33,927 nt of DNA. Source: a virus. The translations under genes were made by a program, and so were the position numbers. The stretch lies in the IMG/VR virus record IMGVR_UViG_3300037493_005408, positions 1 to 33,927 of that record. The stretch is one strand, 5' to 3'. The notes below the pieces were generated by a model. That model had not been told where the DNA came from. It worked only from the letters and a program-made list of their open reading frames with translations, and ran no database searches. This document shows positions 3,124 to 33,927 of this stretch, piece by piece. Every line of letters begins with the position of its first letter. Position 1 is the first letter of the stretch.

Positions 3124-4083
3124 CTAGATAGTTGACTTAAACTTTACACAAAATTGTGTGTAAGCTACGTTAACTCCTAATTTGAAAGCTACTCTATAAC
3201 GAACCTCGTTATTATCTTTTGAATACCAGATAGTGTAATTATCTTCTTCAGCTTCTAAGTCAAACGCCATAGCGATGTTAGACAAAGTTGTTGCGTAGAT
3301 ATCGCCAGTGCCATTCAATCCGTTTACTGCTACTAACTTCGCGTTAGTTCCAGGGATAACGAACATTCTATCAGCGCTACCATCAACTTGGTAGTTGTAT
3401 AAATTCAATGCTTGGTAAGCTAAAACTGCTAATCTATAAGCATCAAAACCTACAAAAATATGTAAATCTTCAGCGTCAATGATTTCAACTGGGATAGCTT
3501 TGTAAACACCTTGTAAAGCAGATACAATGTTAGTAGAAGTCAAAGTTGAAATAGGCGCACCAGATACATATCCAGATACGTTTGCATCAACCGGAGAACC
3601 AGCATCAATCAACTTAATTAAGCCATTGAAACGCTTTAAGTTTTCGCTAGCTGAATCAGTATCGCCTTGCCAAATTCCTACTTCTAATTGCTTAGCAATA
3701 GTCTTGTTTTTTTGTTCAGCAAACTTAGTTTGGAACTCAGCCCATCCAAAATCTTCGTAAGTAGAACCCGCTCTTAAAGCCTCTTGAGAGAAGTAAGCTT
3801 CAAAATCTTTAGGGCAAATTGCTTCTTCGATTTTGATTTTACCAACTGTCACTGTCGCTTGGCTTAAAGTAGTTGTACCACTTGCATTCCAACCGCAAGC
3901 ATCAGCTTGGAAGTTTGCGTTTGTAGCAAGTTTAGGAACCGCTACCGCAGATTTAGTCTTAGGTAATAAGATACCACCAGACTTGATTAATTCTTGTGTT
4001 TTCGCAGAGAAAACCGCTTCGGTCAATAAAGGTGCAATCTGTTGTTTAGTATATGCACTTATGCCTGAAAATGATAATGCCAT
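3124..4083 (-). CDS. Major capsid protein (HK97-fold likely)
   Basis: A 319-residue protein, preceded by scaffold and protease genes in the usual maturation order. It begins MALSFSGISAYTKQQ and has an N-terminal helical arm (IAPLLTEAVFSAKTQELIKSG). A hydrophobic beta-rich core follows, with KIKIEEAICPKDFEAYFSQE, then LHIFVGFDAYRLAVLAY and MFVIPGTNAKLVAVNG. It ends with EVRYRVAFKLGVNVAY, typical of the P-domain strand of HK97-type capsids in this phage group. Its codons are more uniform than those of most neighbours (GCT, GAA, AAC used often), which would fit high expression. The capsid role is well supported; the fold is inferred. Confidence 0.87.
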   Translation of the reverse strand: MALSFSGISAYTKQQIAPLLTEAVFSAKTQELIKSGGILLPKTKSAVAVPKLATNANFQADACGWNASGTTTLSQATVTVGKIKIEEAICPKDFEAYFSQEALRAGSTYEDFGWAEFQTKFAEQKNKTIAKQLEVGIWQGDTDSASENLKRFNGLIKLIDAGSPVDANVSGYVSGAPISTLTSTNIVSALQGVYKAIPVEIIDAEDLHIFVGFDAYRLAVLAYQALNLYNYQVDGSADRMFVIPGTNAKLVAVNGLNGTGDIYATTLSNIAMAFDLEAEEDNYTIWYSKDNNEVRYRVAFKLGVNVAYTQFCVKFKSTI

Positions 4084-18930: not shown

Positions 18931-19050
18931 TCAACCTCGTACATTTACTATAAATCCTTGTCCTTTCCATACAAATATACCACCATTTGGGTTTTTAAGT
19001 ATCCATTTGTCAAAAGCTACCAACGGATCCAGATAAGATTTTAAACTCAT
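18931..19050 (-). CDS. 39-residue protein overlapping the end of the primase gene
   Basis: The product begins MSLKSYLDPLVAFDKWIL, followed by KNPNGGIFVWKGQGFIVNVRG. It starts at the ATG at 19050, inside the last 41 bases of the primase-helicase gene, and extends 80 bases past its stop. Composition and the balanced mix of polar and aromatic residues look like a real small protein and not a shadow frame. I know of no function. It contains a TATATTTG string (18972-18979), which here encodes codons and may or may not also act as a promoter. Confidence 0.5.
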   Translation of the reverse strand: MSLKSYLDPLVAFDKWILKNPNGGIFVWKGQGFIVNVRG

Positions 19051-21505
19051 TTTTGTTATTATTTTGTCGATTACGTAATGTTGTAAGTTTAAATCCAAAT
19101 AATTCGCTTGCAGTTTGCAAGGCTTTTTTAAATCTTATTTGGCTATAATCTTTCTTTTCTAAATCATTAATTCCTAAAAAGTTTTGGTACTCGGTTCCAA
19201 ACTCAAACCATTTATCTTTTGTTATGTCTTCAAAATAGTCCAGGAAGTCCTCGGTAAAATTAAGTTTTATATTTTTGCGGTTAATGGTTGTACTATTATC
19301 AAGTGCTGGTATTCCGGCTTCAAGGTATATTTGTACGCATTCAATCATATAATTGTAGAACCTATTCCATTCGTCGTTGTCCCAGTCGTTAAACAATGCC
19401 TTGCCACCAAAGAAGTCTAAGGGTGTATTTTTATGGTTAAAGAACGAGCTAAACTCAATTACTTTTACCCTACGTTTGCCATGCCCACCGGCATAGTTTA
19501 TAGTATAATTGGTAGTAAAGCCAAACTTTGGCGCATCGTCATAGCTAATATAAATCTCGTCCTTATTCTTTTTTTCTATGGTTACGCCTTCGGTTATCTT
19601 ACTATAAAATCCTTCAAAGTCCACGTTCTTACGGCAATCCTCTACTACAATAAGCTGGGTACTAAGTTCCACGCGTTGGAATGCAAAACTTTTATCTAAC
19701 TTAAAGTTCTTACCATCAATGCTAACTAAGTTAATAAGCTTGCCAATGGCTTTAAAAAACAAACCTTTTCCGGCACCACCGCCGGCGGCTTCGTCTTCGG
19801 TTTCTTCGGCTAGGATAACTGCGTAGCTTTTTGTAGGATCCTTATAAGTATGCAATAGGTAACCAATTAAACTAATGGCGTAGGCTTCGCGCTCGGGGTT
19901 GCTATCACTAATCTTATTAATAAACTTTGTGTATTGCACATTCTCGTAGTCCAGGTCTTGATCAACATCTATTTTGTATTGTATAACTTGGTCCTTCCAT
20001 ACGTGCATATTAATAGCGCCGTACTTAAGTAGTTCCTTTTTGTTTTTAGTTACATGTACCACGCCATTTAAAAATGGATAGTAGGCCGAATCTTTAGTGT
20101 GCTTTAAAAACTTTAAATCTATGTTAGGCATAAACTCAAATAAGGCTTTGTTAAAGTAAGCGTCGGCACCTTTATAAATAACTTCGCGTAGTCTAGTTTT
20201 ATTTATGCCGTCAAAGTTTTCGTAGGGTATGGCATCAATGTAATTAATAAGGAACTTTTTAACTTGCTCTATGTTAGTTTCCGATACAAAGTTATCTATT
20301 ACGCGGACCAGTTGGTAGTTAAGTTTTTTATCGTAGTAGTACAAATAAAAGCCACCTTCGTTACTTAGTAGGCTTATAAGTTTATAGCGGTCAATAGTTA
20401 TAACGCTTTTTATTACGGACCAAAATGTAAGCAGTTGTATGTCGTTATCGCTATCAAGTTCGTTAACTAAATTCTTTGCTTTGTTAATATCTAACTTGTG
20501 TTTTTGGCTTATGAATGCGGCTATATTATCATTGTCGATGCCTTCATCCTTTTTATTAATAAAGTCCTTTTTAATATTGTTACCAATTCGGTTACGCCCT
20601 TCGCCGTAGCCATCTTTAATAAGTTGCTTTGCAGCGTTGCTAAAGTTCCCATTATGTTCTAGGGTGGCGTAAATAGCAAATGGCTTGTAACCGCGGCCGG
20701 TTTCAAACTCAGTGCTAGTGCTAAATACTTTAAATAAGTTTAGGCCTTTGTGGTAGTCGGCCGAAATATGTGAATCAGTTTTACCAGGACGCTTTAAATA
20801 ATCGCGGTCGCCTTTGGCTTCTATCCATTGCCAACCATGGGCCTCAAGTAAACTTACTACATTACATTTGTTATTATAGTCGTCCCATGGTGTGGTAGCG
20901 TAAGCGTCGGCGTCGGCTGGTAGTTGTGTTCGGGTTTCTTTTATAACTTCGTTAAAGGATCGGCAAATAGCTAAGATGCTATCGCGTTGCTCTAGGGTTA
21001 TTACATTTACTTTAAACTCTTTTTCTTTGGTGTAACCTTCACTGGGTGGCGCTAGTACGTACCCGCCTTCGCCTCGGGTTTCTATTAGCACTACTTCTTT
21101 GGCGTGCGGGGTTTCTTTAAGTTCTTCTTTGGTAGCGTTGCGCATGGCAAGTTTTTGATTGCCTTGTACTTCCTCGCATCTATAATAAAGATGGTAACCG
21201 CCCGACTTTGTACGTACAACATATAACAAAGGTAGTAGGTCTTTTAGGGCTTCTTGCAATCTTACCCAAAGCGTACCGGTAACGTCGTACTTTAAATCTA
21301 CGTCAATAATTTCTAGGCCAGCACTAACGGCACCACCAATAATGGCAATGTTTTTAGTGCGATCATTATTAAATTGTGCGTTAATTTCTTCGGGTGTTAT
21401 TATTCTTGTTTGGTATTCCGTCCAAGGAAAAACGGCGCGTTTGTTATCGCCAATGGGTATAACTGAAAATCCTTGTTTAGTGTAGTAGTGTGCGGCTTTT
21501 ATCAT
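19010..21505 (-). CDS. Primase-polymerase fused to SF3 helicase
   Basis: A protein of 831 residues starting at the ATG at 21505, whose A is the last base of the methyltransferase stop; an earlier in-frame start lies inside that gene. The N-terminal part is a bifunctional primase-polymerase of the archaeo-eukaryotic primase type, with EIIDVD (metal acids, about 65-70) and VVRTKSGGYHLYYR (catalytic-type His, about 97-109). The C-terminal half is a D5/SF3-type helicase with GGGAGKGLFFKAIGKLI as Walker A (near 570), LIVVEDCRK as Walker B and FGFTTNYTI as sensor 1. The Walker A has Gly in place of the usual Ser/Thr. It is the replicative primase-helicase, acting with the SSB and nucleases on the other strand. 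Confidence 0.85.
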   Translation of the reverse strand: MIKAAHYYTKQGFSVIPIGDNKRAVFPWTEYQTRIITPEEINAQFNNDRTKNIAIIGGAVSAGLEIIDVDLKYDVTGTLWVRLQEALKDLLPLLYVVRTKSGGYHLYYRCEEVQGNQKLAMRNATKEELKETPHAKEVVLIETRGEGGYVLAPPSEGYTKEKEFKVNVITLEQRDSILAICRSFNEVIKETRTQLPADADAYATTPWDDYNNKCNVVSLLEAHGWQWIEAKGDRDYLKRPGKTDSHISADYHKGLNLFKVFSTSTEFETGRGYKPFAIYATLEHNGNFSNAAKQLIKDGYGEGRNRIGNNIKKDFINKKDEGIDNDNIAAFISQKHKLDINKAKNLVNELDSDNDIQLLTFWSVIKSVITIDRYKLISLLSNEGGFYLYYYDKKLNYQLVRVIDNFVSETNIEQVKKFLINYIDAIPYENFDGINKTRLREVIYKGADAYFNKALFEFMPNIDLKFLKHTKDSAYYPFLNGVVHVTKNKKELLKYGAINMHVWKDQVIQYKIDVDQDLDYENVQYTKFINKISDSNPEREAYAISLIGYLLHTYKDPTKSYAVILAEETEDEAAGGGAGKGLFFKAIGKLINLVSIDGKNFKLDKSFAFQRVELSTQLIVVEDCRKNVDFEGFYSKITEGVTIEKKNKDEIYISYDDAPKFGFTTNYTINYAGGHGKRRVKVIEFSSFFNHKNTPLDFFGGKALFNDWDNDEWNRFYNYMIECVQIYLEAGIPALDNSTTINRKNIKLNFTEDFLDYFEDITKDKWFEFGTEYQNFLGINDLEKKDYSQIRFKKALQTASELFGFKLTTLRNRQNNNKNEFKILSGSVGSF

Positions 21506-22176
21506 CAAAATAGTTTTTGTTGTTTTATATGATTGTTTATTCGTTCCATTGCTTTTTTGTAGTAGTCGGTATCTAGTTCGCATGCCGTTAAATCAAAGTT
21601 ATAATCGTGGCATGCTATTGCTATTGATCCGGAGCCTAAGTGCGTATCAAGTATTTTATCGCCAGGCTTTGCGTATTTATCAAGTATCCATTTGTATAAC
21701 GCTACTGGCTTTTGAGTTGGATGAAATCTCCCCCCCCCCCCCCCATTATTTTCAGCTAATGCTTTACCTCTTGACATACTAAAAATTCTTAATGCTTTTT
21801 TAAAAGAACTCCAGGCTAATTCTCCATCTGCTAAACTAAAATCTCTTTGTCCTTTATCCCAAATTAACCACCCCATACTAGGAGGTAAAAATTCCGTCAT
21901 ATAATTTCCACCCCAAATTACTTGATTTTTTGAAACTCTAAACAATTCATCAAAATATTCTTTGTTTGGTATTGAATTATCCCAATCGGTGTTTTTATAT
22001 AATTTCCAACCTCTACCAGCTTTACTTTTGCCGTTTGATTTTATCCTTGATAAAGCGGCTTTATTTTGTTCATTATCCGCTCCTATCCCATAAGGCGGGT
22101 CAACTATGGCTAGGTCGAAGTGCTTATCGGGATAGCGGGACATTAAGGCCATGTTATCTTCGTTGGTTATGGTCAT
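21505..22176 (-). CDS. Beta-class DNA methyltransferase with a G15 tract
   Basis: A 223-residue adenine-N6 or cytosine-N4 methyltransferase. Catalytic motif IV is DPPYG (26-30). The SAM-binding end comprises FHPTQKPVALYKWIL and ILDTHLGSGSIAIAC (motif I). The order motif IV, target-recognition region, motif I is that of the beta class. Five Gly codons at residues 145-149 are written as 15 consecutive G, at the edge of the recognition region. The segment from about residue 32 to 149 uses AGA for five of six arginines and is AT-rich, unlike the flanks. The gene overlaps VRR-NUC and the primase by ATGA/TGATG junctions. It may protect phage DNA from host restriction or mark it during replication. 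Confidence 0.9.
   Translation of the reverse strand: MTITNEDNMALMSRYPDKHFDLAIVDPPYGIGADNEQNKAALSRIKSNGKSKAGRGWKLYKNTDWDNSIPNKEYFDELFRVSKNQVIWGGNYMTEFLPPSMGWLIWDKGQRDFSLADGELAWSSFKKALRIFSMSRGKALAENNGGGGGRFHPTQKPVALYKWILDKYAKPGDKILDTHLGSGSIAIACHDYNFDLTACELDTDYYKKAMERINNHIKQQKLF
21730..21744 (-). repeat. Fifteen-base G homopolymer inside the methyltransferase
   Basis: The coding strand carries 15 consecutive G (C on the plus strand), translated as five glycines in the observed phase. Loss or gain of one or two bases would shift the frame and remove motif I. No other G or C run of comparable length was seen in this AT-rich genome. The precise length depends on assembly accuracy. Confidence 0.9.
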
Positions 22177-22421
22177 AGTTCTTGCATTTTATAAATTGTT
22201 CTTACTTCAAATCCTTGTTCTTCTAATTGTTCGTGGCGGTACTTTTGTAGTTCGCTTAGTTTACCTTTTTCGGCTTTGCATTCTATAAAGAAAGTTTTGC
22301 CGTCTTTTAATAACATTAAATCCGGCATGCCATTTTTATTGCATTGTATTATTTTTACAACGTAGTAGCCTAGTAGTTCAAAGTGCTTAATTATTTTACC
22401 TTGTAGAATACTCTCTTTCAA
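22173..22421 (-). CDS. VRR-NUC nuclease
   Basis: An 82-residue nuclease of the PD-(D/E)XK superfamily, VRR-NUC type, consisting of the core domain. GMPDLMLLKDGKTFFIECKAEKG gives the D...E-x-K site (Asp in MPDL, Glu and Lys in IECKA), and SELQKYRHEQLEEQGFEV supplies the final helix and strand. Stand-alone phage VRR-NUC proteins cut branched DNA such as Holliday junctions. The start is a TTG at 22421 inside the preceding small gene. Its stop overlaps the methyltransferase ATG. Confidence 0.85.
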   Translation of the reverse strand: MKESILQGKIIKHFELLGYYVVKIIQCNKNGMPDLMLLKDGKTFFIECKAEKGKLSELQKYRHEQLEEQGFEVRTIYKMQEL

Positions 22422-22536
22422 TAGCTTTAAGTTTTGGTTTTACTTCGTTTACAAATTTACCTTTAATCATTATAAAGATAGGTTTCTTTTTTTCTTGTAC
22501 TGGTAGTGCTTTACGCCCTCGGGTTTCTTTTTTCAT
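22396..22536 (-). CDS. 46-residue Lys-rich protein
   Basis: The product begins MKKETRGRKALPVQEKKKPI, continues FIMIKGKFVNEVKPKLKAIE and ends REYSTR. Its ATG is at 22536, six bases beyond the stop of the 3D-domain gene, and its end overlaps the nuclease gene. The ETRGRKxLPxxEKK pattern recurs in small DNA-associated phage proteins, but no defined domain is evident. Confidence 0.6.
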   Translation of the reverse strand: MKKETRGRKALPVQEKKKPIFIMIKGKFVNEVKPKLKAIEREYSTR

Positions 22537-22542
22537 TTTTGT

Positions 22543-22941
22543 TTAGATTTTTATTATTTGAATATTTGTTAATTTAGTTTGCTTATCGTTTGGGTTTATT
22601 AAAATATCAATACGGCTTTTGTATCTTTTATTCATTACGTCATGTATGTAATAAATACCATTATAAATACCGGCGTTTAATATTTTAACTTTGGTACCAA
22701 ATTTATACTTCTTTTTAATATCGCGACTAACTGCAATAATTCTATGCTTTGCTGGGTTAATACTATCCAGGACAAACCCACTAGCGGTAATGTTTGGGGT
22801 TGAATCAGTTTCCTTGGCGCTTGCAGTATATGTAGTTAATGTTACAAATTCATATAAATTAGTAACATTAATTTTATTTAATATATATCCTTTGCTTAAA
22901 GAACTAGGAATTAGTAAGATAAATAATATTATTAGTTTCAT
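22543..22941 (-). CDS. Secreted 3D-domain protein
   Basis: A 132-residue protein with a signal peptide (MKLIILFILLIPSSLSKG). The remainder matches a 3D domain (double-psi beta barrel related to MltA and resuscitation-promoting factors): LTTYTASAKETDSTP, ITASGFVLDS, RIIAVSRDI and HDVMNKRYKSRIDILIN, including the conserved Asp residues. Such domains bind or cleave peptidoglycan. It heads the leftward unit, just after the divergent promoter, and is separate from the endolysin near 29142. Early wall modification or superinfection control are possible roles. Confidence 0.75.
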   Translation of the reverse strand: MKLIILFILLIPSSLSKGYILNKINVTNLYEFVTLTTYTASAKETDSTPNITASGFVLDSINPAKHRIIAVSRDIKKKYKFGTKVKILNAGIYNGIYYIHDVMNKRYKSRIDILINPNDKQTKLTNIQIIKI

Positions 22942-22957
22942 AGTTTAGTTTTAAAAA

Positions 22958-23019
22958 TGCCCTCATAACCCATTTGGATAACCCACTACAATTATTTAAT
23001 GTTGTTTTTTATGAGGGCA
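22958..23019 (-). promoter_or_regulatory. Leader RNA with a long-range 11-bp inverted repeat
   Basis: Arms TGCCCTCATAA (22958-22968) and TTATGAGGGCA (23009-23019) are perfect complements separated by 40 bases. They lie between the leftward TATATTTG box and the 3D gene ATG, so they would form in the 5' leader. The right-hand arm on the RNA is followed by ATTTTT, as in an attenuator. A TTATCCAAA, close to a DnaA box, lies in the loop. Confidence 0.65.
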
Positions 23020-23022
23020 ATG

Positions 23023-33323: not shown

Positions 33324-33893
33324 TTATAACTTCGTATCTTCATAAGGGTAGTCTAGGTTTGAAAATCTTCTATTGTTATATCGTCCTAAATATATTGGCG
33401 AAGTATATGCCTTTGTTTGCGGCGCTATATCGTCAAAGCCACTTCCGTAGTCTAAATATTGCGGGAATAACTCGGCATTTTCGCGAAGGTAGTCTATAAG
33501 GCGTTGCTTATAAAACTCGCCGTTTTCCATGTACTTACGCTCTAATAGTTCAAGTTGGCCTTTACTTGGGTTGTTGCTTTCTTCGGCGCTTTTTTGTAAA
33601 ACACCTTTACTAAAAAATTGATAGCTTGTACTTACTACCATTTCGGCAATAGTAAACCAAAGTAAAGAATCGGTTACGTAGTCGTCAAGTAATGCCTTTT
33701 CGGTAAGGGTTAAATTGTCGGCATCGATGCCAGCTTGCAACCTATTGTAAAGCCCACTACCTAGGGCCGGCAAAATGTATTTATCTTGCGCTAGCTTAAT
33801 AGTTGGCTTTATTTGTTTGCCGTCTATGGCATCGCTTATGGCGGTGCGGCTTTTAATTAAGGTTTCGTTTATAAAAAGTATATTTAAACTCAT
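33324..33893 (-). CDS. Head-tail connector (DUF6712-like)
   Basis: A 189-residue, mainly helical protein. LFINETLIKSRTAISDAIDG, KPTIKLAQDKYILPALGSGL and YNRLQAG are the typical opening of the DUF6712-type adaptor family. Across the circular join it follows the portal-MuF gene by only a few bases (portal ends at 97, equal to 33897). This is the expected place for a head-completion adaptor. Confidence 0.8.
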   Translation of the reverse strand: MSLNILFINETLIKSRTAISDAIDGKQIKPTIKLAQDKYILPALGSGLYNRLQAGIDADNLTLTEKALLDDYVTDSLLWFTIAEMVVSTSYQFFSKGVLQKSAEESNNPSKGQLELLERKYMENGEFYKQRLIDYLRENAELFPQYLDYGSGFDDIAPQTKAYTSPIYLGRYNNRRFSNLDYPYEDTKL

Positions 33894-33927
33894 ATTTTAT
33901 TTTTTACGTGTTACTACTTTTACATCC
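33801..33927. repeat. Right copy of the 127-bp identical end repeat
   Basis: Identical to 1-127. It covers the start of the DUF6712-like gene (up to 33893) and the last codons of the portal gene. One copy should be dropped when the circle is closed. Confidence 0.95.

Follow-up and report, generated by a model that had tools for sequence, protein, structure and literature searches.

A poly-G tract as a candidate phase-variation switch in a solitary phage DNA methyltransferase, and the concentration of such tracts in phage methyltransferases

Does a run of 15 consecutive G in the reading frame of a phage DNA methyltransferase (MTase) act as an ON/OFF switch of DNA modification, or is it a neutral sequence that the enzyme tolerates? 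This question is raised by the stretch of viral DNA analysed here, the 33,927 nucleotides of IMG/VR record IMGVR_UViG_3300037493_005408 (hereafter the window), for which the original prediction, made from the sequence alone, had proposed a phase-variable MTase. The Fletchervirus phages of Campylobacter are said to resemble the window in carrying hypermutable coding poly-G in a phage genome, which there gives rise to mixed phage populations; the switched genes of those phages reportedly encode receptor-binding proteins, whereas the gene in the window encodes a DNA MTase, and the relatives of its MTase and of the portal protein are found in flavobacterial phages. Poly-G tracts are reportedly present in over 100 phage genera. 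Poly-G phase variation has been reported in Campylobacter phages (Sorensen et al. 2021, Cell Rep 35:109214, as related in PMC10877375 and PMC8713573). In bacteria, phase variation has been described for the MTases of restriction-modification systems and phasevarions, for example modA, modH and the H. pylori RM genes that contain G/C tracts (PMC5700931, PMC3230613, PMC12003011). As in the reading proposed here, a homopolymer or repeat within the MTase frame brings about ON/OFF methylation in these systems; however, the genes belong to the host and often have a cognate endonuclease as well as a role in regulation, whereas the window carries a solitary phage MTase located next to replication genes.

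The tract and the gene that carries it

The tract lies on the minus strand at positions 21730-21744 (C15 on the plus strand), exactly where it had been predicted, and forms codons 145 to 149 (GGGGG) of the MTase gene (21505-22176, minus strand), directly before the HPTQKP motif and the SAM-binding motif I. The claim that no comparable G/C run exists elsewhere also held: the next-longest G or C run in the 33.9-kb window has 6 nucleotides and the longest A or T run has 9, and a first-order Markov model of the window, with the tract removed, gives an expectation of 3.3e-6 for runs of at least 15 G or C. Given that GGG represents 51 of the 573 glycine codons outside the tract (9%), five GGG in a row do not reflect codon usage, which was ruled out as the source of the tract. 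Contingency loci are recognized by an uninterrupted homopolymer of about 8 or more nucleotides in a reading frame, well above background, and the G15 tract has these properties; the gene in which it lies belongs to a phage genome with portal, terminase, tail and endolysin genes.

The 223-aa product was identified as a beta-class N6/N4 DNA MTase, as originally predicted, by PF01555 (2.3e-14; 54.3 bits vs a curated cut-off of 26.7), the PHROG DNA methyltransferase profile (3.5e-42) and Foldseek, and it is ON as assembled. The order of its elements is that of the beta class: motif IV, DPPYG (residues 26-30; 22087-22101), which is invariant in 43 homologues, is N-terminal to the variable middle region (residues 32-144; 21745-22083), which contains the presumed target-recognition part, followed by HPTQKP (residues 152-157; 21706-21723) and by the C-terminal motif I, DTHLGSGS (residues 177-184; 21625-21648). 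In the alignment these motifs are invariant or nearly so. The AlphaFold model of the protein (mean pLDDT 77) matched M.BceJIV, MboIIA, CcrM and RsrI in the PDB by Foldseek; with M.BceJIV, CcrM, M.MboIIA, M.RsrI and M1.HpyAVI (PDB 8urk/9c3s, 6pbd, 1g60, 1eg2 and 5hfj) it shares the fold and the order DPPY ... HPTQKP ... motif I, at about 16-21% identity over the structural match.

The GC3 of the middle region is 0.19, compared with 0.61 upstream and 0.30 downstream, and the tract is located at its 3' border. The middle is the least conserved part of the MTase among homologues, and its base composition is unlike that of the ends; this pattern suggests that the recognition region may have been exchanged. 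According to the alignment, the glycines occupy a loop that differs freely in length and sequence from one homologue to another, and in the AlphaFold model residues 147-149 are the sole segment of three or more residues with a pLDDT below 50.

The MTase gene is flanked by two other minus-strand genes, and the three have overlapping ends. Upstream, a small VRR-NUC nuclease gene (22173-22421; PF08774, 5.4e-8; PHROG endonuclease/Holliday junction resolvase) overlaps the MTase start; downstream, the ATG of a Prim-Pol primase/polymerase gene (19010-21505; PF09250, 2.8e-18) overlaps the MTase stop codon as TGATG (21503-21507). Profile searches found no cognate restriction endonuclease in these two adjoining genes, neither of which belongs to a restriction-enzyme family; VRR-NUC is not a restriction-enzyme partner by family. 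Among annotated phages the sole relatives of the portal protein are those of the Nonlabens phages P12024L/S, and the closest annotated MTases belong to Flavobacterium phages, which makes a member of Flavobacteriia the probable host.

The consequences of slippage for this gene were deduced by translation. Tract lengths of 12, 15 and 18 preserve the frame, and any change in length that is not divisible by three gives a product of 156-166 aa without HPTQKP and motif I: the -1 frame ends at the stop codon at 21702-21704 (157 aa) and the +1 frame at 21680-21682 (165 aa). The DPPYG motif is kept in every frame state. It had been anticipated that a one-base change would remove the SAM-binding motif I, and this motif is absent from both products. 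A fusion of the OFF frames to the Prim-Pol frame was considered and ruled out, given that they stop at 21704 and 21682, before the primase frame becomes open at 21592. Since the loop is variable in length and sequence and the pLDDT at residues 147-149 is low, in-frame changes should be harmless; out-of-frame lengths, which lose HPTQKP and motif I, should abolish the enzyme. The TGATG overlap implies that a switch may also affect Prim-Pol through translational coupling, and the OFF frames could possibly lower the translation of the coupled primase.

The tract site in related and unrelated methyltransferases

A tract at the same codons was found in L018, a contig from another metagenome that belongs to a related phage (its DNA is 75% identical to that of the window in 3 kb of adjoining genes and 90% identical in the MTase; 12 of the 43 fourfold sites compared differ between the two MTases). 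It carries AAC-G12-AGA (AAC-G12-AGATTTCA), and the contig ends 8 nt after the tract. L018 lacks the genes of window positions 22177-23020 (VRR-NUC and a 132-aa ORF), and its MTase directly follows the divergent intergenic region. The remaining 79 close-homologue loci of the search have no tract at this site, and the same is true of the Flavobacterium phages 11b and lillamy (AJ842011, MN812218). The MTases of these two phages are solitary beta-class enzymes like that of the window, belong to the same family (about 59% full-length identity) and show the same motif order; unlike the window MTase they have no poly-G, and their loops read ...AQKGGSIHPTQKP and ...EDEDGKKQHPTQKP. Seven isolate-phage or database-phage relatives of tract-bearing MTases were checked and none has a G-tract. 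It had been reasoned that homologues with ordinary glycine codons would weaken the case for a switch; most homologues have no glycine run at all, and the closest one keeps the tract.

The lengths of the two tracts differ, G15 in the window and G12 in L018, and both are in frame (ON), which has a chance of 1/9 given random frames. No out-of-frame copy of the gene was seen among these two tract-bearing members; therefore, switching is not demonstrated by this gene family alone.

The site itself recurs in other MTases. When 2.9 million viral contigs were scanned for nine or more G within 12 nt before HPT[QE]KP, L082 was found, a GC-rich phage contig with G11 just before HPTQKP; another contig, L346, has G12 before QRGDHPTQKP. 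Both carry beta-class phage MTases unrelated to that of the window. In both cases the tract is out of frame and the downstream half is intact, in L082 in the other frame. L084 was discarded as a chance pattern match. The same scan of 84,980 cellular species genomes found no match.

Poly-G tracts across phage methyltransferases

The distribution of poly-G among phage genes was analyzed in IMG/VR, to which the enrichment results refer. A complete scan of the viral contigs for T-G12-A returned 84 stretches, 64 of them internal, and MTase genes were called by profile search. MTases account for 17 of the 64 internal tracts, against 5 of 800 other ORFs of the same loci (P = 1e-16); when related tracts were counted once, relatives being collapsed by eye from the flanking residues, the proportion was 6/53 (P = 1.6e-5). 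A scan for G14 or longer gave, among the matches listed, 5 of 52 internal tracts in MTases against 9 of 1040 background ORFs (P = 3e-4). As a control we scanned for G-A12-C, and among the matches listed 3/100 were in MTases; the excess of T-G12-A over this control has a P of 1e-5. G was on the coding strand in all 22 MTase tracts (17 T-G12-A plus 5 G14+ among the matches listed), and Pfam agreed on the MTase identity for the loci scanned with it. The tracts sit at different positions: ParB-linked N6 MTases have them behind VLID or ahead of DPPYN, C5 MTases behind RDRxWIVA or PCQDIS, and beta-class MTases ahead of HPTQKP.

Further G10-G15 tracts are present elsewhere in phage C5 MTases (L116:6688-6702; L275 and L286 at 3246; L283 at 3144; L278 at 3042); they lie after PCQDIS or close behind an N-terminal AGGGI, a pattern that suggests repeated independent gains. 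A type III Mod-kind DNA methyltransferase with G15 out of frame was observed in a contig classed as viral (L148:13250-14651), which may be host sequence. T-G12-A tracts that are in frame also adjoin a DNA polymerase III beta clamp domain (L355:6251-7942) and a D5-type primase domain (L320:441-1523). In several viral contigs (the end of L018, L220, L227, L228 and L387) the first or last nucleotide is no more than about 31 nt away from the MTase G-tract, as if assemblers break there.

Differences in length between near-identical phages were found in two of the MTase families. In the ParB-N6 family the tracts have 10, 11, 12 or 13 G, with G12 (ON) in five contigs and OFF lengths in six, some of which may be errors given that assembled homopolymer lengths can err by one or two. 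Identity between L389 (G11) and L394 (G13) is 99.9% over 4016 bp, and between L377 (G12) and L395 (G11) it is 99.6% over 2792 bp. In the C5 family, 11-15 G occur at one site in 18 contigs and all three frame states are represented; L216 and L217 share 99.85% identity over 3394 bp and carry G12 and G14. With errors of this size in assembled lengths, single frame calls are soft in both families, but the spread of tract lengths is hard to explain from error alone.

In the C5 family the tract length sets which frames are joined: G13 joins C5 to C5, G12 and G15 join C5 to another frame, and G11 and G14 join neither; L146, with G15, joins two overlapping frames, and the family was counted as having three frame states. 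A second open frame (MSWL...GLWRTPD...WVEWLMGW) overlaps the C5 frame in L146:5018-5847 (minus strand) and in L210-L233, and looks conserved. A single extra base beside the tract in L217 (tract at 2162) and in L215 (tract at 3497) restores the frame class of the neighbours; L217 has G14 with ACCAAG and L216 has G12 with ACAAG, which looks as though a frame shift had been compensated at another position.

Slipped-strand switching and its alternatives

We consider it probable that the G15 tract is a slipped-strand ON/OFF phase-variation switch in a solitary phage DNA MTase, with the assembled copy ON. As judged from the tract length, G15 would gain or lose bases by slipped-strand mispairing during phage DNA replication. 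Lengths in frame (12, 15, 18) would give the full enzyme, with the glycines placed, according to the alignment and the model, in a flexible loop between the helix that follows the middle region and HPTQKP; other lengths would lead to a stop codon after no more than about 20 codons, with loss of HPTQKP and of the SAM site, and an active enzyme is not expected from them. One plaque would then hold both phages making methylated DNA and phages making unmethylated DNA. This would be of benefit where unmethylated DNA is cut by the ordinary restriction of some hosts and methylated DNA by the type IV enzymes of others, or where methylation is costly, and the mixed modification would be a form of bet-hedging against host restriction, as the original prediction had put it.

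The proposal of a phase-variable MTase is favoured by the G12 of L018, by the enrichment in MTases and by the differences in length and frame between near-identical phages of other families, which together make it the best explanation; against it stand the lack of an OFF length of this gene, the fact that its G15 and G12 are both in frame, and the absence of the tract from its other close homologues, phages 11b and lillamy included.

Rather unlikely, in our judgement, is that the G-run is neutral or slightly harmful and persists in a tolerant glycine loop, where slippage resizes it and selection keeps in-frame lengths without any benefit from switching. That both members of the gene family are in frame, one codon apart, and that the loop tolerates any length in homologues would agree with this explanation. 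However, if the run were neutral, one would not expect it to be about 20-57 times commoner in MTases than in other phage genes, to recur at the same site in unrelated MTases, or to be out of frame with an intact downstream half.

An assembly or sequencing artefact, whether poly-G produced by two-colour chemistry or a chimera with its junction at the tract, is very improbable. At least 81 end-associated G14+ runs in viral contigs do look like artefacts, and the base composition shifts near the tract of the window; however, this tract is internal, keeps the reading frame, has on its two sides the halves of a single well-aligned MTase, and recurs in the independent phage L018, whose MTase matches upstream and for 8 nt beyond it. 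An artefact had been named as an outcome that would overturn the prediction, and it is unlikely because L018 has G12 at the same codons. The window also ends in an exact 127-bp terminal repeat (1-127 = 33801-33927) that points to a k=127 assembly; as expected for a circular assembly of this kind, the record would be a circular genome with an assembly overlap and a true length of about 33,800 bp, and single reads would then span the tract with unique flanks. Equally remote is an action at the RNA level, in which transcriptional or translational slippage would set a fixed ratio of full-length to truncated product per genotype, perhaps tuning the coupled primase, since long homopolymers can make polymerases and ribosomes slip and the MTase stop and primase start overlap, but it leaves the genomic length differences between near-identical phages of other families unexplained; such slippage may coexist with that of the DNA.

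Phage-encoded phase-variable MTases had been said to be rarely described, and this is right in part. No direct description of them was found in the literature searched, which consisted largely of papers free of subscription; phage poly-G phase variation as such is published for Campylobacter phages, as far as the citing articles relate it. The part that seems new, to the extent that this body of literature can indicate, is the concentration of poly-G tracts in phage MTases.

With somewhat less confidence than for the switch in this gene, we favour the view that many phage lineages have independently placed poly-G slippage switches in MTases of the beta-class N6, ParB-linked N6 and C5 types, making modification a heritable and reversible form of bet-hedging. 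If this is true, MTases would rank among the principal targets of poly-G phase variation in phages, and a phage stock would be, by design, a mixture of modified and unmodified genomes, so that the host range attained in the face of restriction would depend in part on a reversible coin-toss and not be a fixed trait. The reason why phages carry solitary MTases would become testable, because ON and OFF sister phages provide a natural comparison, and single consensus phage genomes would conceal functional variants at such tracts.
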